Part shown: in pieces, positions 1 to 57,002 of the stretch
Layout of the letters: each line of letters starts with the position of its first letter
Numbering within the stretch: position 1 is the stretch's first letter
NCBI GenBank assembly: GCA_963691655.1
Contig: OY829326.1
Span: 93,489,235-93,553,234 of the forward strand
From: Toxonevra muliebris
Lineage: Eukaryota > Arthropoda > Insecta > Diptera > Pallopteridae
Direction of reading: 5' to 3'
DNA length: 64,000 nucleotides
Translations under genes and position numbers: made by a program
Notes under the pieces: model-generated
Told to the model about the DNA's origin: nothing
Database searches by the model: none
The model's input: only the letters and a program-made list of their open reading frames with translations

Positions 1-1217
1 CACAACACTAAATAATATTATTTTGCTTTGTTTGTTGCAATAAAATTTAAAAAATGCGTCGTTGCACCTGTAAAAATCAAAAGTAAGAAACAACAAAAAA
101 TCGAAAAACAAAAAAAAGTTTGAATACACGCCAATTAAGTTTTTTGTTTTTTAATTTTTCTATAATTATGTAAATGTAATTAATTGTAGTACGATATCGT
201 ATTTATTTGTTTTTGTAATGCCACATAATGTTCCAAGTTCAAAATCACTATTTTTTTAATACGCTGCCAACTTGGCACGCGACACATTCATCGCTGCTGC
301 ACGCGTGATTAAATTTTTCACTTTGCATAATTCGCAAGTGTCGGTCCGTGAAAAATTAAAATGAGGCGCCACAAATGCATAAAAATACACAGTACCTCGT
401 GCCACTTTGTGCTTTGTTCTCATACAAATATTTACTCATATGTAAATGCACATACACACACTCATTCACACGTACATACACACATGAAGGTGCACATGTA
501 CAACTAGCACGCGATTTCAAATTGTATTTTCTTTGTTTCAGTTATACGCGCGCGCGCAATTTCCTTTTAACTGCTTGTTCAAAGCGCGATTGATGATTGG
601 TACTGGTGGTACTTGAAGCAAGCAAGCGGACGAGGAGCGTTTTATCACGTTACATTAGAGTCTCGAAATGAAAGTGAAACTGCGGCCGCTTTTGTGTTTG
701 TTTTTATAGTGTGCTATTTTCCAGAGTTGCCGTCTGGAAAAACTAACATTCAGCGAACGCGCTGCCACCAAAGCCGCGGCTATGCCTTTCATTGTGTACT
801 CTGGGCGCCTGCCAACATTTTGTTGCACGCACATGCAATCGGTGCAAGCACCTTCCACGATGGCATCACACCATCATCACATCATCAAGCAGCGATATGT
901 TAGCATAGGAGGAAGTTGCTACATTGCCGCATTGCTGAACACTGATTTCGTCTCGTTTATATCATTGAACCAATAACGTTCAATTGCTGGTGGTGTTGTT
1001 AGCATAATAAAAACAAAATTGCTTTTTTTTATAATTTTGTAAAGCAAATAATTAATATAGGTACTTATAAATAAAAATATTATAAGCAAATAATTAATAA
1101 ATGCATCTGCTTATTATCAAAAGGTATAGGATGAATCAATTAATTTGCTTATAATTGCACAGTGCAACAATTGAACACCTGTACTCAGATTTTCGCTATC
1201 GTGTCTGGAATCCTCGC
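1..1217. other. Stretch without a supported gene
   Basis: AT-rich sequence with a somewhat GC-richer island at about 240-960. Short open frames occur on both strands, but none has a recognisable domain, a convincing start or conserved-looking composition. The island could be an untranslated exon or a regulatory region of a gene lying left of the window; nothing in the sequence decides this. Confidence 0.4.
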
Positions 1218-1923: not shown

Positions 1924-3199
1924 AGGAGTGAGATTGAAAAAATCTTAACACACGTTTTACCTAATAATTGTTTTTGGGTGTAAAATTTAAAAATTTCTTT
2001 GATGTAGTTATCTTTGAAAAATATGTCAGTTGTTATTTTTAATGACAAACATGTTGATTTATTGTGAGTTTGATCAAAATGAGTGAAGAAAAAGAAGTAC
2101 GTCTTAAAATTATTAAAAATTTTCAAAAAAATTCAAATTGGTCCTACAAAAAATTGGCCAAAGAATTGATGGTCTGCCGTCAAACTGTTTCCAATGTTAT
2201 TAAACAGTTTCATGAGAATTTGACCATCGATAGGAAACCTGGTTCGGGAAGAAAACAAGGACCTCATGATATTGGGAAAGCCAAGAAAATAAAAAGCATA
2301 TTGAAAAGATCTCCAAACACATCTGGTAGAAAAGCTGCCCGGATAGCCCAGTGCTCTGACTATTTGGTGCGAAAAGTTAAAGCCAACCCATGTTTGAAAA
2401 CATATAAAGTCCAAAAAGTTCCAGACAGGAATGCTGCAAAAAATTTAGACTCCAAAAGTATGGCTCGGAAATTAAAATCGAATTTCATACAAAAATATTC
2501 ATGTTGTATAATGGACGACGAAACTTATGTACTGGCAGATTTCACGCAGCTTCCGGGTCAAAATTTTTATGTTGCTGATGCTCGAGGAAATGTCGAAGAA
2601 CAATTTAGAATCCAAAAGCAGACAAAATTTTCTAAAAAATTCCTGGTATGGCAAGCTATATGCAGTTGCGGCAAAAGAAGCAAGTCATTTGTTACAGTGG
2701 GCTCTATAAATACCGAAATATACATCAAAGAATGTTTGAAAAAAAACTTCTTCCTTTCATAAGAGAGCACAATGTGTCCACATATTTTTGGTCCGATTTG
2801 GCATCATGACACTACGCCAAGAAAGCTCTAGAGTGGTACCAATGTAATAACATAGTTTTTGTAACAAGAGAGGCCAATCCTCCAAATTGTCCGGAGCTAA
2901 GACCAGTGGAGAGATATTGGGCTCTTGTGAAAATAAACTTAAAGAGCACAAAAAAGGTGTCCCAAAATATCGAAGATTTTAAAAGGAGATGGGCAAACTG
3001 GTGCCTGAAACAACTATCAAATCTCTAATGGAAGGCTTACCAAAAAAGGTCAACGAGTTCATAAATAGTGGTTAGAACTATAAAAGTTATACTTTTCTGT
3101 AATTTGTAAAATATTATCAATTAAATAAGAATCTCTAAGATCAACCGTTTAAAAATTATTGAATTTTATATATATTAAGATTTTTTCGATCTCACTCCT
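1924..3199 (+). mobile_element. Tc1/mariner superfamily element, DD37E type, defective
   Basis: The element begins AGGAGTGAGATTGAAAAAAT and ends with the inverted counterpart ATTTTTTCGATCTCACTCCT. The terminal repeats are about 25 bp with one mismatch. Both ends are flanked by TA (1922-1923 and 3200-3201), the target duplication of the superfamily. Total length is 1276 bp, normal for a full-length Tc1-like element. It carries one plus-strand transposase gene broken by a frameshift and a stop. The superfamily is certain; the exact family name is not. Confidence 0.9.
2064..3075 (+). pseudogene. Tc1/mariner-like transposase (broken)
   Basis: The product would bind the terminal repeats through N-terminal helix-turn-helix domains and cut and paste the element with a DDE catalytic domain. 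The reading frame is open from 2064 (a second ATG at 2079 is equally likely) to about 2745 and covers the helix-turn-helix region (SYKKLAKELMVCRQTVSNVI) and the first catalytic block (IMDDETYV). A one-base loss in an A run near 2745 shifts the frame. The continuation LLPFIREHN..YFWSDLAS carries the second Asp and then a TGA at about 2807 where a Cys codon is expected. The third acidic residue is in PELRPVERYWA, 37 residues after the second Asp. Translation resumes to a TAG at 3073-3075. Inactive as it stands. Confidence 0.85.
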
Positions 3200-6741: not shown

Positions 6742-7179
6742 CAGTAATCATTTGTAGTAAAGCTCGAAGATTTAGTATGAAAATGTTAATTATTAATGGC
6801 ATTCTGTAAGAAAAATATGGATAGCCGAGAAGAAGGGGGCGTGGTCCTTGCCATACAGCTCTAATGCTTTTTTGGATATATGTACAACAACCGTTCCAGT
6901 AAAGCACTGTAATTTTGTACAAAGATGTTCGTTGACAAAACCATACAAGAAAAACGTGGGTGGGATTGAAAAAGAGGGTGAAGCATTTTCATTATTACGT
7001 TAATTTTCATTATGGGATATCTGAGGAACCATTTATGGCGCGGTTCTAAGATCCGGTGTTAAAATATGATTTCTGGGTGCATGAGTAGTGGGTGTGTCAC
7101 CTCTCTTGGAAACCTGATTTTTAATACAGTGCATTTCCTAAATTATTTGTGGACCAGTGATGATAGTTGGCTAGATAGT

Positions 7180-16325: not shown

Positions 16326-16525
16326 CGTTTTTGACAGCTGCTTGTTGACCTTTATCCATAGTACTATATGCCTTCAAGTATTCATAGGACACTTATTCAC
16401 GGGCCTGAAAGCAGTACATCTACCTATGGGCATGTTTTCAGAAGAGGCTTTCGAAGCCCGCAACAAAGACTGCCAAAGGTATAGGGAATATCATTCCAGA
16501 AAGTTTTCACAGGAGCAAACTAGTC

Positions 16526-17060
16526 ATAGTCTCCTAAAAAACTATCATACACTGATCGAATTGGGTCTGTTCAGAAAAAATGACACCTGGAATAATTTTC
16601 TCACAAACACATATACTGTCTCATGTATTAGACTTTCAAATAACGAACTGTTTGTAACATTTGTAACTAGTCTGCATGACTAGTTACAATGAAAAAAATA
16701 CAACAACAAATAAGTATGTAGAACGGTAGTGATAGTTTCTTTCTATATATCTATTTAGTGAAGATATTTACAATCAAATCTGTAATTCTTAGTAAGGTTA
16801 AATATTAGTACCTTATATAAGATATTGAAAAACTCAGAACTATCATTAAGATCACTGATGAGTAATTATGGCGGATTCCGAAAGGGACGTCTGATTTGCC
16901 TATCTCAATATACACTGTTGTTGTTTTAACTATATTTGTTCATTAAGCCTCTGTTATAATATATAGCTTCAAATAAAGAATTAAACATGAACTTAGGTCA
17001 TGACTTTGCAAATTAACGTCTAGATTTAATTTTCATACTCTCCTAAAAAACTATCGTGAA
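16526..17060 (+). mobile_element. Old copy of the hammerhead-ribozyme repeat
   Basis: This locus contains slightly more than one unit of the family described at 37776-38894. AGTCTCCTAAAAAACTATCAT at the left recurs as ACTCTCCTAAAAAACTATCG about 507 bases later. It is clearly more diverged than the other two loci, and no target duplication could be recognised. It has no coding capacity. Confidence 0.75.
16848..16897 (+). ncRNA. Hammerhead ribozyme, degenerate
   Basis: CTGATGAG at 16855-16862, GAAA at 16880-16883 and GTC at 16889-16891 occupy the hammerhead core positions, with TGATTT after the cleavage triplet and AAGATCA before the core for stem I. Stem II is weakened (GTAAT opposite ATTCC). 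The base after GAAA is G where C is needed to pair with the G of GTC. Cleavage is probably lost. Confidence 0.6.
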
Positions 17061-17221
17061 TTGTTCTTGTTAAAATCTAAAAATAGAATTTTGAATATAT
17101 TTAATGAGTTAAAGTTTATTTGTGTATACAATAAATTATTTTAAAAAGAGAAAATTCTATTATTTTACAAAGGTGCCTTACAGGCGAAGATTAGTATTAA
17201 AGGACAACTAAATTACTTTAA

Positions 17222-18494: not shown

Positions 18495-18738
18495 GACGAC
18501 CTCGATAGTCTAGTGGATAGTGCACTAGACTTTCATCCAGAAGGTTGCGGGTTCGATTCCCGTCTTGGTCTGGTGGTTAATTCTCATAAACTTCTTATAT
18601 TCACTATCGATATGAAGTGGATGAGAATTATAAGAATGTGTACAAGTACACACCTTGGTTGGTAATGGCAAGACCACCGAGCTGATAAAAAATTGCCACA
18701 AAGCCGTTCGGAATCGGCGTTAAACTGTAGGTCCTACT
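18495..18738 (+). repeat. tRNA-headed SINE, nearly complete
   Basis: The head ATAGTCTAGTGGATAGTGCAC followed by GGGTTCGATTCCCGTC gives good A and B boxes for RNA polymerase III. The 3' domain (GTTCGGAATCGGCGTTAAAC..TGTAGGTCC) is shared with the copies at 7.8 and 30.5 kb. The head is close to a Glu/Asp-type tRNA arrangement but is not followed by a tRNA 3' half that folds. Confidence 0.75.
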
Positions 18739-20351: not shown

Positions 20352-21497
20352 AAGCGCGGTTCACGCAAAATTGGCACGCAGGAAAGTTGCTGTATCTTTT
20401 TAACCAGAAAACTCAGAATTATGCATTAAATGATCATTTTAATATTGTGTTTTAATACTATAATATTGAAAGATTTAAATTTCTTTGTTGTGCAAAAAGT
20501 TCTGGATACTTTTGCGGCTATTTGGTTCCATTTTAGTAACATTGAATTCACATTTTTGACAATACCTGAATTTTTCTTCAACTTATATTTTGTAATAGCC
20601 CAGTATCTTTCGATCGGTCGAAGCTGGGGGCGATTGGGTGGATTCATATATTTGGGCACTACATCTACTTTATTTGTCTGATACTAATCCATGGTTTTCT
20701 TAAAGTAGTGGCAACTGGCTAAATCAGGCCAAAACTTCACTGGCGAATGGTGGTGACGAACAAATGGCAATAGTCGTTTCGAAAGGTACTCTTTGATGTA
20801 AATATCAGACGTCATAGAAGAGGATGTCACAAATGCCCTGGATTTGAGACCACAGCTGCAAATAGCCTGCCACACCATTGCTTTCTTTGCAAATTTATCC
20901 ATTTTTATGTACTTGAATTTTGAGGGTACATTACCACGATTCGTTGCCATATAAAATGTTTGACCTGGAAGCTGTTTAAGATCAAATTTTACGTATGATT
21001 CGTCATCCACAATAATGCATCCATTGAATTTGGTCAAAACATTATTATAAAGAAGACGAGCACGTTTTTTGGCCAGCAAATTCTGTTTGTCTTTTCTATT
21101 TGGATATTTTATAGCACTTTATCCCAGCTTTTATGTGCCCTTAATTTTAGGTTGGTGGTTCCCGTTTTGTTCACAACTTTTTTAGCTCTTTCAACACTAA
21201 GAGTTTCTTTATATCGTTTTATAACTCTACATACCGTTCTTTAGGAGATATTTAACACTTTCGCAATCTTTGAACCAGACCACGACGGATTTTCAATAAA
21301 TTTGTTCACAATCAATTTTCTATTTGCAGATTCCATTGTGCACACAATCACCAACTTACGATCAATTAATATGAAAAATTTATCAACTAACGGTAACGGT
21401 ATTGTAAACAAATCCCACTAAAAAATTTGTTATTCTTATGACTAGGGGCGACGTGGTGACCACAACAAAGCGTGCCAATTTGGCGTGAACCGCGCTT
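20352..21497 (-). mobile_element. Tc1/mariner superfamily element, DD37E type, second family
   Basis: Left end AAGCGCGGTTCACGCAAAAT and right end ATTTGGCGTGAACCGCGCTT form about 27-bp inverted termini with one mismatch. TA lies on both sides (20350-20351 and 21498-21499). At 1146 bp it is a near-complete element with a minus-strand transposase. The termini are unrelated to those of the 1924-3199 element, although the transposases are clearly related. Confidence 0.9.
20426..21336 (-). pseudogene. Tc1/mariner-like transposase (broken)
   Basis: The frame starts at the ATG at 21336 (MESANRKLIVNKFIEN), runs into a helix-turn-helix region (WSGSKIAKVLNIS, then a stop, then RTVCRVIKRYKETL), and is interrupted again near 21118. 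The longest intact part (21079-20684) carries the first catalytic block (CIIVDDESYVKF), the conserved LPGQTFYMATNRGNVPSK and the second Asp in FWPDLASCHYFKK. After a stop at 20684-20686 the last part has PPNRPQLRPIERYWAITK with the third acidic residue, 37 residues from the second Asp. The sequence parallels the broken gene at 2064-3075 throughout and gives the same DD37E spacing. It is not functional. Confidence 0.85.
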
Positions 21498-21661
21498 TAG
21501 GAGCCTTCATAATTTTTAACAAGATACATTTTAGTTTTTAATTTTAGTTAATTTTCAAAGTCATGACTTAAGTTCATGTCAATTTCGTTATTTGAAGTTG
21601 TATATAAACAGATTAATGAACAAATGTAGTCATCACAACAACAATGTATATAGAGACGGGC

Positions 21662-21711
21662 AAATCAGACGGCCGTTTCGGAATCCGCCACAATTCCTCA
21701 TCAGTGATCTT
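21662..21711 (-). ncRNA. Type I hammerhead ribozyme
   Basis: Minus strand: stem I AAGATCA/TGATTT, core CTGATGA (21704-21698), stem II GGAAT..ATTCC with loop TGTGGCGG, GAAA, a minimal stem III C-GGCC-G, and the GTC triplet at 21670-21668. Cleavage is predicted between 21668 and 21667. All conserved core bases are present. Confidence 0.8.
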
Positions 21712-22049
21712 AATGATAGTTCTGAGTTTTTCAATATACTATATAAGGTACTAATATTTAACCTAGTCTGCATAACAGTTCGTTATTTGAAAGTCTAGTA
21801 CATGAGAGTGTGTGTGTGTTTGTGAAAAAATGATTCTATGTGTAATTTTTTCTGAACGGTCCCCATTCGATCGGTTCATGATAGTTTTTTAGGAGACCAT
21901 GAAAATTAAATCTAGAGGTTAATTTTCAAAGTCATGACTTAAGTTCATGTCAATTTCGTTATTTGAAGTTATATATAAACATAATTCTGGGTTATGATTT
22001 CAAATATTAGTAGCTTATATAGGATATTGAAAGATTAAGAACTATCACT

Positions 22050-22099
22050 AAGATCACTGATGAGGAATTGTGGTGAATTCCGAAACGACCGTCTGATTT
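22050..22099 (+). ncRNA. Type I hammerhead ribozyme
   Basis: CTGATGAG at 22057-22064, stem II GGAATT..AATTCC (one pair longer than in the sister copies), GAAAC, loop GACC, and the GTC triplet at 22091-22093 followed by TGATTT. AAGATCA before the core pairs with TGATTT for stem I. All conserved core bases are present; the change from GGCC to GACC lies in the stem III loop. Confidence 0.8.
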
Positions 22100-22180
22100 G
22101 CCCGTCTCTATATACATTGTTGTTGTGATGACTACATTTGTTCATTAAATGGTTTATATATAACTTCAAAGATACATTTT

Positions 22181-36114: not shown

Positions 36115-37762
36115 CATAGACCCACCCAAATAGCAGAAGTTAATGCTTAATGGAGAGCAACAATTTTGGAGTTGTTTTGATAATTTATACGGAAACTCAT
36201 TGCTTTTAAAACTTTAAGCGTATTTATCTCTAAACCTTGTTTTTTCAAGAACCGTTCAACTGATCAAGCTGAAACTGGCACACATATTAAATAAATTGAC
36301 AGTTTCCCTCGTTTATTTATAATTCACAATTTAATACCGAAAACTGTATTTTTAACATTCAACAGCTGTCATTTTGTCAAAAATAAATTGTTTCAAAATC
36401 ATTTAATTCACCTGCCAGATTCACTAAATAACTGACAAACTGTTTTTATCGAGTTTTGTGGTGAAAACTCCAAAAAATAGACCTGAACGGAAACGTCTAT
36501 AACCCCAACATGAATCAATTTTTTCAATCACTTTTTTTGTAAACGCTCTTCAGTAACACTGCTCGACAGATTTTTATACAAAAGTTTTTACTTCTGATTT
36601 TAGAAGTGAAAGTTTTGCAGATTAACACAGTTCAGTTATGTTAACATAGTTAGTAACTTTTTCCCCCCACTGAAAACTGAGTTTAAAAATTAATAAAAGA
36701 ATAGAAAGAATTGTCGAATTATTATAAATTTACACTTATTTAAAAGAAAATAAAGTGCTAGATTTGCTGGCAATATTATTTGGAATTTTGTAGTGTTATT
36801 AATATTATGGAGATTTTTTTAGAAAATCACATGACTCCATATCTCCACTCCATCATTATTTTCTATTTTAACTTAACTGGTTGCGTAAAAACTTCAAATA
36901 TACTGTATAAAAAATAAGTTTACATTTACAAGGACCCGATATTTCTTTCTATTTATTATTAATTTTTAAATATCACAAACTCCGTTTCAGAACAAAAAGT
37001 TAAAAAGTTATGTAAAGCCACAAGTTTTATATGTAGATTCATTCAAAGAAAGATTTAAAAAAAGGCACCTAAAAGTCAAAAAATCGAAGAGATGGAAAAA
37101 TTTGGTAAATAGGGGAAGTCATCATTTGTTGCTGCCAATCCAACTATGTAGGTCTGTATCTTTGTCGGACCCAAACAAAATATTCTGGTATCACATAAAA
37201 TACTACCACTAAAATTTCCAAATGTTTTAATGCAAAACCTTATCATTCTTGAATTCCTATTACTTGTGACCTTTTATTTGGCCAACTATTACAAAACTTG
37301 CAAAATTTACTAGCTGTTCCGGCAGCCGTTGCCATGCCTTTAGTATTTTAATGTGAAAATTAAGTAAGCAGCAGAAAAAGCTGTAAAAAATAGTAGTAGA
37401 AAATAAGAAAAATTGTGGAAAAAATTAGTAGAAAATAGTATTGAAAATAGTAGTAGTAAATAAAAGTAGGGCATGGTGCCATACCCACTAATTCAACAAA
37501 CTGAAAGAATACGTAAAGATGTTATCACAACAACAATACTTCCATACCAAATCTTAGCACCGTACTACAAATTGTTTCTGCTCTAATCCAGTTTATATAC
37601 GAGGTGCCACACCCCCTCTTCTAATCACATCAATTTTTTTGTAGCATGGTATTGACAACTAACATATTTATGCCAAATTTCAGTACTGTACTGTGAATGT
37701 TTCTGGAGATATACCCAAAAAAGTTGAGTTGTATGGGAGGTGACACGCCTCCTTCTCCAAAC
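36115..37762. other. Stretch without a supported gene
   Basis: AT-rich repeat-like sequence. GTATGGGAGGTGACACGCCT (about 37730) and TACGAGGTGCCACACCCCCT (about 37598) resemble ATATGGGAGGTGCCATGCCT on the minus strand near 6380. This indicates another dispersed repeat family without coding capacity. Confidence 0.35.
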
Positions 37763-37776
37763 GACTTTATAAATAA

Positions 37777-38031
37777 TTTTTTAGGAGACTATGAAAATTA
37801 AATCTAGAGGTTAATTTTCAAAGTCATGACTTAAGTTCATGTCAATTTCGTTATTTGAAGTTATATATGATTTGTCTGATTTGCCCGTCTCTGTATACAT
37901 TGTTGTTGTGATGACTACATTTGTTCATTAAGCCTGTTTATATATAACTTCAAATAACGAAATTGACATGAACTTAAGTCATGACTTTGAAAATTAACCT
38001 CTAGATTTAATTTTCATAGTCTCCTAAAAAA
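37777..38031. repeat. Inverted repeat at the 5' end of the ribozyme array
   Basis: 37777-37868 is the inverse of 37939-38031 over about 93 bp with essentially no mismatch. The 70-base interval between them holds the start of unit 1 (TGATTTGCCCGTCTCTGTAT on). Transcribed, this would form a long hairpin. Confidence 0.85.
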
Positions 38032-38318
38032 CTATCATGAACTGATCGAATGGGGACCGTTCAGAAAAAATGACACCTAGAATCATTTTCTCACAAACAC
38101 ACACACTCTCCCATGTACTAGACTTTCAAATAACGAACTGTTATGCAGACTAGCTACAATGGGAAAAAAACAACAACATAAGTGTATAGAACGGTAGTGG
38201 TAGTTTCTTTCAATATCTCTATTCAGTGAAGATATTTGGAATCAAATCCGTAATTCTGGGTTATGATTTCAAATATTAGTAGCTTATATAGGATATTGAA
38301 AGATTAAGAACTATCACT

Positions 38319-38368
38319 AAGATCACTGATGAGGAATTGTGGCGGATTCCGAAACGGCCGTCTGATTT
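38319..38368 (+). ncRNA. Type I hammerhead ribozyme, unit 1
   Basis: CTGATGAG at 38326-38333; stem II GGAAT/ATTCC with loop TGTGGCGG; GAAAC; four-base loop GGCC; GTC at 38360-38362. AAGATCA before the core pairs with TGATTT after the triplet for stem I. Predicted cleavage between 38362 and 38363. Helix III is only two base pairs, as in the minimal hammerheads of mobile elements, which tend to act as dimers. Confidence 0.85.
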
Positions 38369-38804
38369 GCCCGTCTCTGTATACATTGTTGTTGTGATGA
38401 CTACATTTGTTCATTAAGCCTGTTTATATATAACTTCAAATAACGAAATTGACATGAACTTAAGTCATGACTTTGAAAATTAACCTCTAGATTTAATTTT
38501 CATAGTCTCCTAAAAAACTATCATGAACTGATCGAATGGGGACCGTTCAGAAAAAATGACACCTAGAATCATTTTCTCACAAACACACACACTCTCCCAT
38601 GTACTAGACTTTCAAATAACGAACTGTTATGCAGACTAGCTACAATGGGAAAAAAACAACAACATAAGTGTATAGAACGGTAGTGGTAGTTTCTTTCAAT
38701 ATCTCTATTCAGTGAAGATATTTGGAATCAAATCCGTAATTCTGGGTTATGATTTCAAATATTAGTAGCTTATATAGGATATTGAAAGATTAAGAACTAT
38801 CACT

Positions 38805-38854
38805 AAGATCACTGATGAGGAATTGTGGCGGATTCCGAAACGGCCGTCTGATTT
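38805..38854 (+). ncRNA. Type I hammerhead ribozyme, unit 2
   Basis: Same sequence as unit 1, 486 bp further on: CTGATGAG 38812-38819, GTC 38846-38848, predicted cleavage between 38848 and 38849. Two active cuts would release a 486-nucleotide RNA monomer. Confidence 0.85.
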
Positions 38855-38907
38855 GCCCGTCTCTGTATACATTGTTGTTGTGATGACTACATTTGACTTT
38901 ATAAATA

Positions 38908-39685: not shown

Positions 39686-40458
39686 ATGTCAGCGTACGAG
39701 AAAGTCAGCACATGGGTGGCATTTAAATATCATTGGCGTGTATGGAAATTTAGTGGTTTTCAGCCTCCGAATCGTGATTCCATATGGCGCATTCCGTATA
39801 TTGTGTTCGCGATTTTGTTAAATGTCATATTTGGATTGGGATTTGCTGCAACATTCGTTATTAACTGCTTCCTTGCGCCCAATTTCAGCGAATTCTGTGA
39901 AGGCGTTCAGGTAACCATTACCGACGTCTTTTGCAATGTGAAATTAGTAAATGTATTTCTGGTGCGTCATGAATTATTGCGAGTTCGTACCATATTGGAA
40001 GAATTGGACTTGCGTGCTAAATCTGCAGAAGAGATAAATATGCTGCAACAGGGCATACAATCAGCGTACCGCTGGTTTTTGACTTTTCTACGCTTATTCC
40101 ACTGTGCTTTTGTGACAGGTCAATTTGCCGCATATTTGTCATCGGAAAACAAACTAATGTATCCAGCTTGGTACCCATGGGATCTAAATTCATCACTAAG
40201 AAATTTTATGTATGCTTACATATTTCAATCGATTGCTTTTCTGATTCAGGCCACACAGGATGTGGCACTTGACACTTATCCGCAAGCATATATGAGAATT
40301 TTATCGGCTCATACTCAGGCATTGGCTTACCGTATACGGCAACTTGGCGTCAAGCAAAGCTGCAATGATGTGGGACACTCGGCTCAATCAGACCAAGAGC
40401 AGGAAGAAAATTATGAGAAACTCGTGGAATGCATAAAGGATCACAAGATAATTATACA
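39686..40458 (+). CDS. Odorant receptor exon 1
   Basis: Encodes residues 1-257 and two bases of the next codon (phase 2). Hydrophobic segments are visible at about residues 35-65 (IVFAILLNVIFGLGFAATFV), 130-150 and 175-195. The start is the first ATG after the core promoter. The exon ends at CA before GTTAAT, so that CA plus A from exon 2 restores a Gln codon. Confidence 0.85.
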
Positions 40459-43400
40459 GTTAATTTGAACAAGCTGTAAGGTTTATTAAAATTAGGGGTT
40501 AGGATGGAAAATGGTCATTCTTCGGCATATATGTAGTGAATTTTTAGTCATTTAACGGCAAACGCTTGTTGCATTGAATTATTGTAGTTTCATTCAACTG
40601 GCTATGTAAGAATCCAAGCCATTTAGCTCAGTTGGTAGAGTAAAAAATGCACCAAAAGCTCAGAAAAATTCTTAACTGCGATTTTTTTTCAGTAATTGTT
40701 AGTGGGGGTATGATAGATGGAAAAATTCACAAAAATCAGTTCTGGGGTTGCAGAGCGACCCCCTGAAAAAACCCCCTCTTTGGTGAAAAAAGCCTTTTTG
40801 TACTAATAACTGGTTAACCGTTGGATATATTAAAGAATTATCTAGCACACATGAAAAACTTAAGTGATTTTCTAAAAAAAGGTGAAACCAGTTATTTTTA
40901 TTAGGCCTGCAAATAGTAAAAGTAGTAAAAACCAACAGACAACTATACTATATTGTTATTTTTGTATACATTGTATATTCGTTGTCAATGAAAATGACAG
41001 AGGATGTTGAAGTTTATATCTTCTTCAAAACCCTTTTTGATTTTTCTTCCTAGCTTGTTTGGTTTTCGAGTAATTCAATTTTTCCTATAGGCTCCACACT
41101 CAAAAATTCAAATAAACAAAGATGCGCGCGCATCCACAGTACATCCAAAGTACTAAATTTGCAATTTCTTAAATATTGAATATCTCGAAAATTTTGACAT
41201 ATACAAAAAAATTACTCAAGCTTTTTTTTGTGGTACTTATTTTTTGATATCTCCAACGGTTAACCAGTTATTAGTAAAAAAAAAGGCTTTTTCACCAAAG
41301 CGGGGATTTTTTTTTTGGGGGGGGGGGGGGGGGTGGGGTCGCTCTGCAACCCCAGAACTGATTTTAGTGGTTTTTGAATCTATCATACCCCCACTAACAA
41401 TTAATGAAGAAAAATCTCAGTTCAGAATTTTTATTATGTAAATCTTTATAATGACTGGACTAATTGTTTCGGAAATATTATTGAATAATGTGATTTCTAG
41501 TCCGAAGTATTTATTAACAAGCCAACGGTTTACATTTTTATCAAAAACCATATCATTTAAAAAAAATGTTTTTTATAGAAAAATTACTCCCTAACCTCAA
41601 ATCTTGACAGCGCTTTACTTTACTCAGAGGTGTGAAAAAATAGACATTTTAAGATTTTTTTAACTTTTTATTTAATACATAATACCAAGTTCTTACATTA
41701 TATTTTAAGCAAAAATAAAAAAAATATTAATTCTGGACTAAGTTATCAACTCGATTGTGAATTTCTCTTTCATAAAAGTGATAAGAGAGAGCGGTGATTA
41801 TCAGTAGTCCTTATAGCTCAAGAATGATAGAATACAAGATTACAATAAGTTGATCAAAATTGCCTCTCTCGGCGCATGTCGTCACAAGTGAAATTTTCAA
41901 AGAGAGAGCGGTGGAGACTACATACATTTTATACGTGAACAATTAGTATGAAATGTGAAAAATTTATGATATTTATTAGTTTTAATTCGGTTATTTGCAG
42001 AAACTAATATAAAATTAAATATTAGTTGTTATTTGTCTTCATCATAAGTTAAAATATTTAACTTTTCATTCATAATATGTGCCATAAATGTAGCGATCAC
42101 GTTGCTTCATAATTCCAGATACTTTGCATAATTAGAATATCCTTAGTGTGAAATTTAATGAGGGATCGAGGAAGAGTAAGACATTTACTTTTGGATTCAA
42201 ACCGAGATTAGATTTTTTAATTTTGGCCAGTTACATTTTTCAGCAGCCTCATAATGCATTGTTTATATGTAAATGCAAATAAAGAAAATTATAATCTACG
42301 TCACAGACACAAAAGCTTCCTCTCAATTTTGTTAGAGCCAAATAACGGAGATACGCGTGGTGTAATCTTGTATTTTATCATTCTTGCCTATAGCTTCATA
42401 GTTTATATTAACACGTTCGCGGACGTGAAAGCTATAATATTCATTTTCGTGGTGTCACAATCAAAAATACATATTTCAGCATTCAATTCTATATAACGTC
42501 CACATAATCCACAACAGAACTGACTGTATATAACAAATAAAATGACATTATTAGAACTTTGGAAAAACGTGTATAATCAAAATTTAAATATTACGATTAC
42601 TTTAAGAGAGCCGCCATGTCCCTCTTTTTGCACCTCGATACACTTTTGAGTGTCCGCGAACGAGTTAAGCTTGATCGAACGTTTTCAAGTTTCGCGAAAT
42701 GGCGGCCTCTGGAATATTTTTATGGAGGGAAAAATCGTTCAAAAAATTAGATTTTTGGTTAAAAAAATCCATCAATCAGGTTACAATTTTTAAAGCTTAG
42801 AAGTAAAAATTGCATCTAAATCCACCTAGTGATTTTTAAGATATCGTAATCACCGTATCGGAAAACTTAGTTTTGAGAACAATGGGTTTCAAAGAATAAG
42901 TTATTTTCAGAGGTTTTGTTTTATAAATCGGAAATAATTATTATTTGTGATAAAAAAAAAATTGAAACCAATTCAAATTTTCTAATATTTTTGTGTGTGT
43001 AAAAATAATCCACAATTTTTATTTTTGAAAAATAGAAATAAAAATCAAAAATAATTTTTAGCATATTGCTTATTTTTTTTTTAAATTTAGTTAAACATCG
43101 CCACACTTATAAACTATTTGAGATAGCAAAAAGTGTTGATAAAAATGTGCTTTTATTATAAATAATTTATTATGTAAAAGTTAAGTTTAACTAAAAGCAG
43201 GTTCTTCAAGCTGATATTACTAACAAGAATTACGATGATTTTTATTCTCCAATGAATAAAAATTAGGATTGATTTTAATTAATATCCTTTATATATAATT
43301 ATTATCCAAAATGGTAATTCATAAAAATTGTAGTTGTAAAATCATGACATATTTTAAAAGAGCTCCCTGAAAGCTGCACAAAACTACCTAAAACATCTAT

Positions 43401-45731
43401 ATACGACCAGATTTTACTTATGATTTTTAAATATAAAAATTTTTAAATAATCAATATTTTAGGTCCGTGTCTATGAATAGTAAAAGAGACCTACAGTTAT
43501 TGCAGGGTATCTTTGAAACTAATTATCAGATCGATTCGAATTTGAATGTTTACAAAACACTCTTGAATCATTATACTTAAAGACAATGCGCAAAAAAAAT
43601 CAATTTTTGAAAATTTTAAGATATTTTGTATAAGTGCTAAAGCTTCGACCAAAATTAATCTTTCATGCTCCCTACTACACTCTACCTCCATAAATTGTCT
43701 CTAGATTGTCGACACCTTGAGCAGATCCTGGGTAGAAAATTCAGGGGCAAATTCAATAATGCACAAACACAAAGCAAATGCAGAAGTGTGTACGCATTTT
43801 CAATTCGAAATTTGCCAGCCAATATTCATTTTTCTAAGATTCTCGTTCAGCATCAAATGCATAAAAACATTGAGGGCGATTATGGCCCGCTGGAATAATA
43901 TAGATAATGAACATAATCTGAAGAATTTGAGCTTTTTTTATTTCCAATATCACAAACTCTATTGAAAATATTCGATGAAGTTGAAATCCATAGCAGATGA
44001 TACGTAGTCACAATTATGGCCTCATTACTTTGGAAGTCAGTTGCGAATGCATACAATATTTTTTAAATACAGTATTTGACGACTTATCAAATCTGTATTT
44101 AATCATAGTAGAATCTCTAATCAACCTAGGATAAAAACTTTCGGCAAATTCAGAGTCGAAATCTTCGTAGTTTGGCATATGCTTTTTCTTCCAGCGCTCT
44201 CTCTCGTCAATCTTACGATTGCTCTCTTAGCCATTCTCTCATTAGACCACAGATTCGAAATGGCTTACAAGGCCGTTGTAAGGCATAATTTCACTGTTCT
44301 TGCAATGAATCTTCATGCCAAAGCTCACCACTTTTTTTTTGAAAAATTCGGTACAACGTTTTGGACATGGATGTTGCTGCGCAGGTGTTGTACTAAGCAG
44401 ATAAAGCAATGTTTTCAAATTGTACTCCTGATTTTTTTACCTAATATAATATCCAACGAGCTGTTACTCCGTAGAAAATAAAGTCTCTAAATGGATTAGA
44501 AGACATAAGTGTAAGCGTATAAGCCACACTCTATGTAAAGACGACGGCAGCATAGCACGGAATTCTATCTAATGAAACTTTTACTTTATTTATATATGTA
44601 TGCGGCCTCATTTCTGCATTTAATATATTACAACGTGCGTCAAAAACCAAAATTTGGAGCCGCATTGCATAACAAATCTGAAAAACTTTTAGCTCGTACT
44701 ATACTAAAACAATAGCTAAAACCTGAATCAAGTGAAAGAATCTTGTGCTCCCAAGTGGAATAGAAGGGCAAAAAGACTGAAACAATAATAAAAAAACGCA
44801 TAGATATGAACTGTGATGTTTGTTTATTCGTAGTCAATCCTCAGAACTTCAAGGTTTTCTAAAATTATATTTTTTTAAATAAAAAAAAAATAATAAAAAT
44901 ATATATAAACAAAAAAGGTTCTTGGAAACATATCACTTTGATTTTTTCTGATGAAAAGGATATGAAAATACCAATTTAAATTTTCATCATTTTCATGTTT
45001 TACAACTTTTTGTTGGCATACAGTGCATTTCATGTAAATTTTGGTACAGTTGGTCAGCTTACTCATGCCAAGAGCTGTCTGTATATTTCCAGTTTGTTCC
45101 TTGTCATTCACAATTCGACTCAGTACGCCCCAATTTTAAGAGTACGTTACGTTATTTTTCTAGATCAACACGCCGTAGCATAACTTATTGAAACCACTCT
45201 TCGTTCACAACCCTAATCTTAAACCTTATCTTATTTTTTTAATTTCAGATTATTTCAGACCATACAAAAACCTATATCGACCACATGTTTGGCACAATTC
45301 GCCTCTACGACCTTATCACAATGCACCATTGGCGTATATTTGCTTTATGTTGGTTTTGACATCACTATTGTATTGAATATGGCGGTCATTTTTATTTCGG
45401 TCTCCCTTGAGACTTTCATTTTATGCTATTGTGGGCATTTATTCTGTCAGGAGTGTGAGAATCTATCAGGAGCAATTTACGAATGTAATTGGATGGATCA
45501 AAGTCAGAAATTTAAGAAAACTCTGTTGATGTTTTTGCGGCGTTCACAAAAACTTGATATGATAATGGCTGGAAACTTGATTCCAGTCCAATTGCCAACA
45601 TTTGTGCAGGTGAGTTAGAAATATGGAGTATTTGAAGAAAATTTTAAATATTACACTTCGTATATATGTACTGATTTCAGGTGATGAAGACAGCATATTC
45701 TGTTTTTGCCTTGCTCAGTAGTTTCAAATAA
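39686..45731 (+). CDS. Odorant receptor, three coding exons (whole gene)
   Basis: Insect odorant receptors are seven-pass membrane proteins with an inverted topology that form ligand-gated cation channels with the co-receptor Orco in olfactory neurons. Exons 39686-40458, 45249-45609 and 45681-45731 join to 394 codons, the usual length. Recognisable parts are the loop ending YEKLVECIKDHKIII before the first intron, then LFQTIQKPISTTCLAQF in exon 2, the segment near the end (CNWMDQSQKFKKTLLMFLRR), and the C-terminal TAYSVFALLSSF. From memory it most resembles the Drosophila Or33/Or59a group (YERLVQCIQDHKVI, SNWIDEEKRYQKTLMYFL, FSFSVFTLV). The first donor, ACA-GTTAAT, is weak; a better-looking donor 13 bases later would follow an in-frame stop. 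Other introns are standard. Intron 1 (4.8 kb) is full of repeats. The reading frame looks intact. Confidence 0.85.
40668..41440. mobile_element. Foldback element in the receptor intron, about 165-bp inverted arms
   Basis: The left arm (about 40668-40835) and right arm (about 41240-41440) are inverted copies containing TTGTTAGTGGGGGTATGATA, TCTGGGGTTGCAGAGCGACC and ACTAATAACTGGTTAACCGT. The right arm includes a long G run (about 41319-41335) next to a T run. There is no coding capacity. A partial tRNA-like sequence (TTTAGCTCAGTTGGTAGAGT) lies just left at about 40622-40641. Confidence 0.75.
42412..42664. mobile_element. 253-bp piggyBac-like MITE in the receptor intron
   Basis: TTAA stands on both sides (42408-42411 and 42665-42668). 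The ends are CACGTTCGCGGACGTG and the inverse of CTCGTTCGCGGACACT. TTAA duplication plus short inverted ends fits the piggyBac group, although the termini differ from the 130-bp family. No open frame. Confidence 0.65.
42669..45248. other. Rest of receptor intron 1
   Basis: AT-rich sequence. The minus strand of about 43500-44300 has protein-like but stop-broken patches (for example MPNYEDFDSEFAESFYPRLI), probably transposon debris. The intron ends with the acceptor AATTTCAG at 45241-45248. Confidence 0.4.
45249..45609 (+). CDS. Odorant receptor exon 2
   Basis: The reading frame begins A-TTA-TTT-CAG and gives LFQTIQKPISTTCLAQFAST, two membrane segments (GVYLLYVGFDITIVLNMAVI and the following stretch) and the conserved YECNWMDQSQKFKKTLLMFL region. 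It ends CAG before the strong donor GTGAGT at 45610, phase 0. A second AG at 45257 would shorten the exon and break the frame. Confidence 0.85.
45681..45731 (+). CDS. Odorant receptor exon 3 (C-terminus)
   Basis: After the acceptor TGATTTCAG the frame reads VMKTAYSVFALLSSFK and a TAA. It corresponds to the conserved C-terminal Ser/Tyr-rich helix of odorant receptors. The intron before it is only 71 bp. Confidence 0.8.
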   Translation: MMKTAYSVFALLSSFK

Positions 45732-55900: not shown

Positions 55901-57002
55901 ATTGGTTTTTATTTTCCTGATTTCAATTCTTTTATACTTACATTATGTGTCGTGTTAGTTGCGGCATTGGATACTTGTTGTGCTATCGTCGTCGTTATGG
56001 GTTCTTCATCATCTTCGTCTTCGCCTGTCTGGGAGATCAACTGATTAATCTTATCTTCATCATCGGCGAACGTAGGCAAAAGATCCTCACGTCCATGATA
56101 TTTGTAGCAATTAATGACAATCTTACGCAAAGCATGAGTCCAGCTTATCTATAAAACAACAAAATGCATTAAAATGCGAATGAATTTCGTTTACTATAAT
56201 GGGGATAACGCACTCTCACCTTCTGCTTGTCATCTTCAGAGCGTGCATCCATGCGGACATTAGCCCACGGTAATTCTTTAGGCCACCATGGTGGGCGTGT
56301 TGATTCACGACCCCAGCCCGGCTTACCACGGCCCGTAGAATACTTCAGCATTAGAGGAATAAACGCACGCAACTGTGCCTGTGTCATTTTCTCAACTGGG
56401 GTTGGTATTCCATCGATAATTAATGGGGGCAATTCGAAAAGCGAAGGATCTTCTTGCGGTGGAGGCGGCGCCTGTTGTGCCAATGCACTTTCCAATTCTT
56501 CCATGACAATATTCTTTAGATTTCGCACCACATCTTCCAACGGTTTAGCGCCAAACACTTTGTAGCTGGTATTGGGTTTGCCGGGTGTGGCTACCAGAAC
56601 CACAGCTTGTTTACCGACACGCCCAGTAAACTCATAAATGATGCCGCGCAATTTGCGCAACAGTCTATTTTGTTGTCGCTTACGTACAGAAGGGTTCGTT
56701 TCGAACGAGTGTGCTTTCTTGCGTTTTTTCGATGAAGCAATCGCAGCTGCTGCGGCCACGCCAACTGGTCCAGCGGCTGCCAACTGATTGGCCACATCAT
56801 CTTGTACTGCCATTTGTGCCAAATCTCCATCGCCGTACATGCTGCCATCAGTGCTAATGATGTCATCATCCTCGTCATCCGAGCACATGCTTATTTGCCC
56901 GTCATCGATCATTTCGATTTTGTAGGTCTTGGAATTGAGGGTCGCTGTGGTTGTGTGTTGTGTTGTGGTGCCGGTGCCAGTCGAGACCGTAGTCACATTC
57001 AT
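49790..57002 (-). CDS. ewg: Erect wing, NRF1-family transcription factor (whole gene, seven coding exons)
   Basis: EWG is the fly homologue of vertebrate NRF1, a nuclear DNA-binding activator needed in neurons and flight-muscle development. Exons joined in order (57002-56220, 56148-55942, 54536-54270, 53866-53744, 53671-53533, 53459-52549, 49981-49790) encode about 873 residues, longer than the roughly 730 of Drosophila. The excess is mostly Asn/Gln/Ser-rich runs in exon 6. The DNA-binding domain is in exons 1-2 (nuclear signal KKRKK near residue 92, RKRQQNRLLRKLRGIIYEFT, GRGKPGWG..RPPWWP, then SWTHALRKIVINCYKYHGRE). The end, VENGDQ..DTIIMEQ, parallels the NRF1 C-terminus. If the last intron is retained the protein stops in exon 6 (stop 52537). 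The exon 3 end is the least certain join. The gene reads as intact. Confidence 0.9.
49982..52548 (-). promoter_or_regulatory. ewg: ewg last intron, candidate ELAV-regulated region
   Basis: The 2.57-kb intron begins with a poor donor (AAA-GTAGAA) and ends with a standard acceptor. In the RNA sense it contains dense U-rich tracts: 52096-52058 reads with two AUUUUU motifs and an AUU repeat, and 52300-52280 has a ten-U run. In Drosophila ELAV binds AU4-6 motifs in the corresponding ewg intron to block early 3'-end formation and favour splicing. That the same holds here is inference. Confidence 0.5.
51655..51730 (+). repeat. Degenerate tRNA-like SINE head inside ewg intron
   Basis: TTGGTATTCTAGTGGCAGCA and GGGCTCAATTTCTCGC are weak A- and B-box relatives. 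The downstream TATTTCTTACCTATC matches that at 18741-18850. It lies antisense in the last ewg intron. Confidence 0.45.
52537..53459 (-). CDS. ewg: ewg exon 6, with in-frame stop if the last intron is retained
   Basis: After acceptor TTTCAG the frame completes a Gly codon and reads YPVTSMITVPVTSAMYNSMI, IQQIHTNSDGTVCITPMQVD, long Asn/Ser and Gln runs, and VPLPIVVTTTGTPATVVGKA. It ends KAIKLEKVEN and a TAG at 52539-52537. When spliced, exon 6 stops after K at 52549 and exon 7 supplies VENGDQ. The homopolymer runs are typical of dipteran transcription factors and explain much of the length gain. Confidence 0.85.
53533..53671 (-). CDS. ewg: ewg exon 5
   Basis: 139 bp. It reads LHQGEGGATIQTVQSLGDVN and on to YITAEDGQ with one base of the next Gly (phase 1). 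Acceptor TTGAAG, donor CAAG-GTGCGT, then a 73-bp intron. It corresponds to the NRF1 activation region (QGGEMTIQT-like). Confidence 0.85.
53744..53866 (-). CDS. ewg: ewg exon 4
   Basis: 123 bp, phase 0 at both ends. Acceptor TTTTTGCAG, then YTQTVLSQNADGTVSLIQVD to QVQGVAT, donor ACG-GTAAAG. NADGTVSLIQV is the conserved NRF1 block NPDGTVSLIQV. Confidence 0.9.
54270..54536 (-). CDS. ewg: ewg exon 3
   Basis: 267 bp from acceptor CATGTAG, reading QVNVVKINSAGTVITTHNPN and then Thr/Gln/His-rich sequence. The 3' boundary is chosen at CAG-GTTTGC (54270) because it keeps phase 0 with exon 4 and is the best donor. The open frame continues past it, so a boundary slightly downstream is possible. Poorly conserved, probably a linker. 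Confidence 0.65.
54537..55941 (-). other. ewg: ewg intron 2
   Basis: 1.4-kb AT-rich intron between GTAAGT (55941) and CATGTAG. No nested gene or recognisable repeat. Confidence 0.6.
55942..56148 (-). CDS. ewg: ewg exon 2, end of the DNA-binding domain
   Basis: 207 bp, phase 0 at both ends. ISWTHALRKIVINCYKYHGR and EDLLPTF match the C-terminal part of the NRF1 DNA-binding/dimerisation region. An acidic linker (EDEDDEEPITTTIAQQ) follows. Acceptor TTTTATAG, donor AAT-GTAAGT. Confidence 0.9.
56220..57002 (-). CDS. ewg: ewg exon 1, N-terminus and most of the DNA-binding domain
   Basis: 261 codons from the ATG at 57002. An acidic N-terminal region (SDDEDDD) and an Ala-rich stretch are followed by a KKRKK nuclear signal at about residue 92. 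The NRF1/EWG signature domain comes next, including LRKLRGIIYEFTGRVGKQAV, PPLIIDGIPTPVEKMTQAQL and RPPWWPKELPWANVR. The donor is AAG-GTGAGA at 56219; reading on would stop after a short non-conserved tail. Confidence 0.95.

Follow-up and report, generated by a model that had tools for sequence, protein, structure and literature searches.

A retrozyme-like repeat family of the fly Toxonevra muliebris, probably inserted by a Penelope-like enzyme

A tandem array of ribozyme-bearing units in the window (the whole 64,000 nt stretch of Toxonevra muliebris DNA analysed here) probably represents a new, recently active family of non-LTR animal retrozymes, non-autonomous and integrated in trans by the enzyme of a Penelope-like element (PLE). 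The preliminary description had proposed a retrozyme-like, protein-less element that carries a ribozyme and is copied in trans by a reverse transcriptase (RT), and this is now supported, with 39 more insertions identified elsewhere in the same genome.

The array, element A, lies between two copies of a 13-bp target-site duplication (GACTTTATAAATA; 37763-37775 and 38895-38907), the odds of a given 13-base match being about 7e-8 at the local base composition. Its layout is that of a plain tandem array: unit 1 (37874-38359, plus strand) and unit 2 (38360-38845, plus strand) are 486 bp each, with 0 differences in 486 bases and a G+C content of 34 %, and are followed by a partial third unit (38846-38894, plus strand), positions 38846-38895 repeating the first 50 unit bases without a difference. 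Both the pair of 486-bp units, each with a type I hammerhead core, and the bounding 13-bp duplication had been described correctly. Unit coordinates are numbered here from the first base past the predicted ribozyme cut (38363 is +1). The earlier statement that the array abuts both duplications holds on the right; on the left, the duplication adjoins not a unit but an inverted arm (37776-37868, minus strand), head-to-head with the direct units and the reverse complement of unit +64..159 (homology 37773-37868, 95 of 96 bases matching), which is joined to the direct part by a 5-nt filler, GATTT (37869-37873, plus strand). Likewise, the unit border had been placed at the predicted cleavage site. 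The 5′ border of the direct part does lie 3 nt before a predicted cut, but the 3′ border lies 46-47 nt past one, therefore only one border is at the cut. This inverted arm and three further hammerheads in the window, which are the mechanistically informative parts, had been missed. As had been claimed, no protein is encoded, there being no ATG-initiated frame longer than 58 aa that overlaps element A. Since it encodes neither an RT nor a GIY-YIG endonuclease, element A is not itself an autonomous PLE.

Hammerhead 1 (38320-38368, plus strand) has its predicted cut between 38362 and 38363, and hammerhead 2 (38806-38854, plus strand, limits carried over from hammerhead 1) between 38848 and 38849; the CTGATGA..GAAA..GTC cores are at 38326-38362 and 38812-38848. 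Stem I has 6 bp, stem II has 5-6 bp, and the stem III strand, ACGGCCGU, is self-complementary. This strand is predicted to form a duplex with a second copy (-14.1 kcal/mol) and no hairpin alone, and the minimal hammerhead would probably cut best as a dimer, with two copies sharing an 8-bp stem III. Many hammerheads of animals and PLEs are described as having a weak helix III and cutting as dimers (PMC7761336, PMC6155905). The core motif matches five times in the window, where shuffled sequence gives a mean of 0.02, and four sites fit a structure-aware descriptor of stems I, II, and III, against 0.013 expected. A covariance-model check, as proposed in the preliminary description, gave a full-length match of the element A hammerhead to RF00163 (Hammerhead_1; 1-45, 23.8 bits, E 3.6e-4 in a 91-base search), and focused scans gave full-length scores of 21.8 bits for one element B copy and 17.7 bits for element C; all of these are below the gathering score of 34. 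Rfam scans returned no hits in the window at the gathering threshold, and the element A hammerhead was absent from the hits of a 1301-base scan at E<=10. The matches to microRNA and snoRNA families in that scan were rejected, all being below their gathering scores and the best of them arising from the inverted repeat.

A TATATAG box stands 31 nt ahead of the A in a TCACT initiator-like site (38285-38316, plus strand), forming a putative promoter. Such a TATA-like box, 31 nt ahead of TCA(C/T)T, is present just upstream of all five window hammerheads, with four matches to the pattern elsewhere in the 64 kb, both strands counted; transcription from this arrangement would begin immediately ahead of the ribozyme. 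Folded as a circle, the unit has a z of -7.4. A conserved circular fold was rejected, copy C keeping 130 of 158 pairs against 129.2 expected.

The further family hammerheads in the window (16855-16891, plus strand; 21668-21704, minus strand; 22057-22093, plus strand) belong to two sibling elements. Element B, between 12-bp target-site duplications at 21521-21532 (AAGATACATTTT) and 22169-22180, consists of a minus-strand part (21533-21981, with 21533-21546 aligned by eye only), which lacks about 117 nt internally (unit 278-394), and a plus-strand part (21982-22168) that ends at unit +78. The two parts have 13 differences in the 164 bases compared, and the hammerhead of each fits the structural descriptor. 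Element C (16524-17066, plus strand; 1.1 units, 83-84 % identical) has no target-site duplication that could be found, and its hammerhead, mispaired in stems II and III, fails the descriptor. It is an old, decayed copy. The frame at 16342-16683 beside it was rejected as a coding part of the element, having no Pfam match and no relative at E <= 0.001.

The unit was searched against the host genome (491 Mb, 96 contigs), the best 40 of 2226 first-look candidates being scored. The matches listed were grouped by eye into 40 places, 39 of which are outside the window and were taken with 1-kb flanks. With elements A, B, and C, this gives a sample of 42 insertions, which, being the best-scoring, are probably the youngest copies and not a random sample. 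They hold from 1.1 to 5.2 units. Their 400-bp flanks have six short matches in common, and in no pair are both flanks alike. Fourteen of the 42 carry a head-to-head inverted arm. The hammerhead stretch is altered in only one of 69 full units from 38 insertions (457G>A in L063), a count from which units damaged at the delimiting GAAA..GTC and adjoining TGATT are missing. As expected of a fly element, neither the hammerhead pattern nor the unit had a match in viral contigs, prokaryote contigs, phages, or plasmids.

Target-site duplications of 8-15 bp are listed for 26 insertions (12 bp in nine, 13 bp in four, and 8 bp in four), with an AT fraction of 0.87 (27 scored). In a control that left out L043 and L052, a duplication score of 8 was reached in 26 of the 40 true flank pairs, against 37 of 1560 mismatched pairs that combine flanks of two different insertions; a score of 12 was reached in 14 of the 40 true pairs and in 0 of the 1560 mismatched ones. 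Since mismatched pairs sometimes reach a score of 8, the short A-rich duplications may include a chance match. Of the 16 insertions without a listed duplication, L053 has one by eye and element B has its 12 bp, which falls under the cut-off; that of L052 overlapped unit sequence and was dropped. The duplication boundaries lean to AAC before and AAA after the left boundary and to TTT before and GTT after the right one. This is roughly symmetric, the same sequence being read on either strand, which is the trace expected of an enzyme that cuts both strands symmetrically.

The start points of reverse transcription are concentrated, with 50 of 56 falling within 23 of the 486 nt: 22 in zone P (+78..82 past the ribozyme cut) and 28 in zone D (+152..169), about 77 nt apart. 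Direct 3′ ends (n=42) are at +78..82 in 17 cases and at +155..169 in 21, the others being at 47 (A), 56, 65, and 122 (B). The outer ends of inverted arms are at 78, 78, 78, 81, 82, and 68 on the P side and at 152, 155, 155, 159, 162, 162, and 165 on the D side; the remaining arm, in L043, has its outer end at 411, its left flank being masked. Three of these ends need qualification: that of element A, at +47, is outside the main P cluster; L053 was counted at +80, its duplication placing the end near +58 by eye; and the raw +122 of element B becomes about +158 by eye when a small deletion is allowed for. The end counts do not include an 82-nt piece 34 nt upstream in L036, a separate downstream piece in L069, or pieces of 30 bits or less. 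Apparent end clusters at query positions 50 and 437 were rejected as artefacts of trimmed alignments, having moved on realignment to eight joined units. The 22-bp repeat at the left and right ends of L052 includes D-site sequence, hinting at insertion into or beside an existing copy.

Strand use seems not to be independent of start site. In every inverted insertion with both ends visible, one arm is from the P zone (here +47..82) and the other from the D zone (+152..165), which is 13 of 13 with element B placed by eye and 12 of 13 otherwise, the zones having been drawn after the data were seen. Insertions with direct units only (n=28) use P in 13 cases and D in 15. As the two are used nearly equally, independent choice would give one of each in about half of inverted insertions, and 13 of 13 with a probability of about 1e-4. 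The discordance would be explicable if both strands primed on one RNA, each site being usable once.

The cDNA ends record where synthesis stopped. Seven of 56 are at bases 1-5 past the cut, against 0.58 expected (P 1.8e-6); the other 49 are elsewhere, the majority scattered. The stops at bases 1-5 are read, on statistical grounds, as the mark left by ribozyme cleavage in vivo, and by these seven the self-cleavage assumed in the preliminary description gains indirect support. Five ends are at unit 470-472, in the 3′ strand of stem II, against 0.35 expected (P 2.6e-5, for a window picked after the data were seen); perhaps a folded, uncut ribozyme was blocking reverse transcription. These stops belong to L031, L040, L043, L049, and L052. 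A weak cluster of three inner ends of D-started arms is at 99-102, about 20 nt short of P (P 0.011, window again picked afterwards). When all 5-nt windows are scanned, the largest cDNA-end cluster has a P of 0.0014.

Unit variants bear on the template. Eight multi-unit insertions carry the shared variants 383G>A or 435+T, and in all eight the variant is in all units; in L059 and L069, the private variants 261A>T and 103T>A likewise occur in both units. Across 38 insertions and 69 units, pairs within an insertion have a mean of 0.40 variant differences, against 1.48 between insertions. Running counter to this, two of the four units of L036 carry a 12-base insertion, and private variants of single units, which are later mutations or a mixed template, are found in L031, L041, L043, L049, L054, L065, and L069. 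The overall uniformity fits repeated copying of one circle; a homogeneous transcribed array would look alike. The uncommon 383G>A is in both arms of L043 and L053, a pattern consistent with one RNA as template, and the arms of element B, differing at diagnostic sites, suggest two RNAs. Therefore, one-RNA and two-RNA cases are not separated.

Taken in order, each 486-nt unit would carry its own promoter and a minimal type I hammerhead, and the template would be either an RNA spanning several units or a 486-nt circle derived from it. To judge by the duplications, a PLE-type enzyme would cut both target strands about 8-15 bp apart, mostly 12, at AT-rich sites. Reverse transcription mostly starts internally, at about +80 (P) or +155..166 (D), as the insertion ends show, and when both strand ends are extended, one from zone P and the other from zone D, a head-to-head insertion results, as in 13 insertions. 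Synthesis can span about five units and sometimes halts at the ribozyme cut. A more specific version is offered tentatively and with less than even confidence: a dimeric PLE-type complex may bind a single RNA, probably a circle produced by the ribozyme, at two sites, the strands priming at different ones and neither site being used twice per event, with cDNA that may go round the circle several times. If so, animal retrozymes would be circular-RNA parasites of Penelope-like enzymes. Such a symmetric two-strand, two-site mechanism was not met in those parts of the PLE and retrozyme literature that were compared.

The class of non-LTR animal retrozymes is already known, and the family here is probably a new member. 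Animal retrozymes are defined in PMC7229834, which leaves the mobilising enzyme open and proposes PLEs, regarded as a strong candidate on the grounds that the two groups share type I hammerheads, are in tandem, and co-exist in the genomes analysed there. Like the unit, the non-LTR animal retrozymes of that study are tandem type I hammerhead repeats of low G+C with no protein and many copies; their G+C is below 50 % and their duplications exceed 4 bp, the present family having 34 % (unit) and 8-15 bp. Insects are included among the hosts in one line. The units described are 150-450 bp in the results and about 170-400 nt in the abstract, against 486 nt here, and the discussion refers to circles of 150 to >1000 nt that arise from repeats flanked by ribozymes. 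Fixed RT start sites and head-to-head inversions, found here, are not mentioned for animal retrozymes in the compared passages of PMC7229834. Plant LTR retrozymes are similarly protein-less, with the ribozyme in repeats and a proposed circular RNA intermediate, but differ in having type III hammerheads, LTRs, PBS/PPT, and 4-bp duplications (PMC7229834). A literature search of titles and abstract openings, mostly not of subscription papers, gave no report of retrozyme insertion ends and no fly retrozyme family.

The insertions resemble those of PLEs in kind. The purified PLE protein PAc of Anolis cuts and extends both strands and prefers AT-rich DNA, initiates at two adjacent internal RT sites that share no homology with the target, and still inserted ribozyme mutants in vitro, the ribozyme not being needed (PMC11167929). 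With the unit it has in common a minimal type I hammerhead, two internal starts, extension of both strands, and an AT-rich target; its main start, by our own arithmetic, is 85-92 nt past the cut, against +78..82 for P of the unit (PMC11167929). Pen2a_Av of Adineta has a head-to-head inverted pLTR and a 9-bp duplication, and one of its inverted pLTRs may carry a 31-bp tail (PMC3846280); like the family here, it thus combines an inversion and a short duplication with a tail on one arm only. The tail is about 77 nt here and 30-40 nt in PLEs (PMC11167929, PMC3846280).

PLE-type machinery with open frames is present in the host genome. A genome search for GIY-YIG domains (13 of 13 candidates scored) gave two matches, L070, which is presumably an SLX1-like gene, and the PLE L071. 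The RT fragment of L071 has at least 150 matches (149 of 179 candidates scored), several in open frames of 827-866 aa, and the nearest relatives of this genome's PLE RT fragment are in tephritid and other flies (Eurosta, Rhagoletis, Haematobia, and Calliphora). The PLE loci examined, L072 (the surroundings of L071) and L073-L078, represent about three families. In L073-L075, Pfam found RVT_1 in all three full frames and GIY-YIG in none; with GIY-YIG absent, they are called PLEs on RT similarity and on direct and inverted terminal repeats. Two families have full-length open frames in three copies each (866 aa at C3:82088232, C4:32220825, and C60:41352; 859 aa at C3:56000546, C5:20204534, and C14:3936), from which the PLEs look recently active. 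A hammerhead of the PLE form, CTGANGA-T-stem II, is found in five of the six loci L073-L078, in both pLTRs of L074, and nowhere in 1.6 Mb of shuffled sequence. The five loci have two distinct hammerhead sequences, four loci having one of them. No hammerhead was found in L073, nor in L072 by a stricter descriptor, and Rfam gave no hits in L073-L075 at E <= 10.

The unit encodes neither RT nor endonuclease, and the loci sampled have only weak similarity to it. Descent from such an element is a possibility to be taken seriously, though a rather doubtful one: the family would be a deletion derivative of one PLE, its tandem pLTRs left after the coding part was lost, and not a retrozyme lineage. The insertion mechanism would be the same as in the preferred explanation and only descent would differ, so the probabilities of the two overlap. 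The PLE-like minimal hammerhead and insertion anatomy would be accounted for, and a frame of 22 codons that begins at an ATG within the unit's hammerhead core may be compared with the frame beside the PAc hammerhead (PMC11167929). No partner PLE was found among L072-L078, whose matches to element A are weak; the best, 72 % over 43 nt (E 0.009), is between L075, just past its hammerhead cut, and the inverted arm of A, in the opposite sense, and the others are A-rich or flank sequence. There is thus no clear pLTR similarity in these loci, and the hammerheads identified in the PLEs also differ from that of the unit at the stem II junction, where they have an extra base.

A retrozyme moved by a LINE-type enzyme is unlikely, even though no host PLE partner was identified among the loci sampled. 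Integration would be by target-primed reverse transcription, with 5′ inversions from twin priming, which also yields target-site duplications. However, a second start at a fixed site is not expected of twin priming, and here there is no single 3′ end, most ends being at two internal sites 77 nt apart, at which the inverted strand starts too. In addition, the 26 listed duplications have no poly(A) between them and the unit end (gap +1 or less). Ordinary satellite DNA, spread by unequal exchange and with a hammerhead by chance, is very improbable: the tandem repeats are exact and satellites can hold hammerheads (PMC6155905), but there are 42 sites with arrays of just 1.1-5.2 units, no pair with both flanks alike, duplications above the control, common start sites, and inversions. 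Perfect repeats can arise from misassembly, but unit counts that vary across many loci, 26 with their own listed duplication, make an assembly artefact scarcely credible.

Positional evidence on the mobilising enzyme of retrozymes is added by the shared internal starts, inverted arms, and one-arm tail, and the fly family adds an in-genome footprint consistent with ribozyme cleavage. The PLE mechanism may also be narrowed, in that the two target strands seem to use different start sites. Since the copies compared are young, with identical or nearly identical units, this fly may offer a living system in which the cycle can be tested.

In the neighbourhood, a repeat of another family (37610-37756) adjoins element A on the left and is 72 % identical to 6831-6980 on the opposite strand; short stretches of it also match near L074 and L076-L078. 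Odorant receptor coding parts (7tm_6) are at 39686-40468 and 45289-45618 (plus strand), and element A is about 780 bp upstream of the ATG of the first, a possible regulatory insertion. The frames 2064-2762 (plus strand, with a helix-turn-helix match) and 20684-21079 (minus strand, no Pfam match; about 440 bp from element B) are related, having by eye a common QLPGQ..F(Y)..RGNV..VWQAICSCG stretch, and look like remnants of a transposase family. A tRNA prediction at 18498-18571, with a 2-base anticodon, is probably spurious. At 56169-57002 (minus strand) there is a DNA-binding domain of the NRF1/erect-wing type (PF10491, E 2.2e-88).
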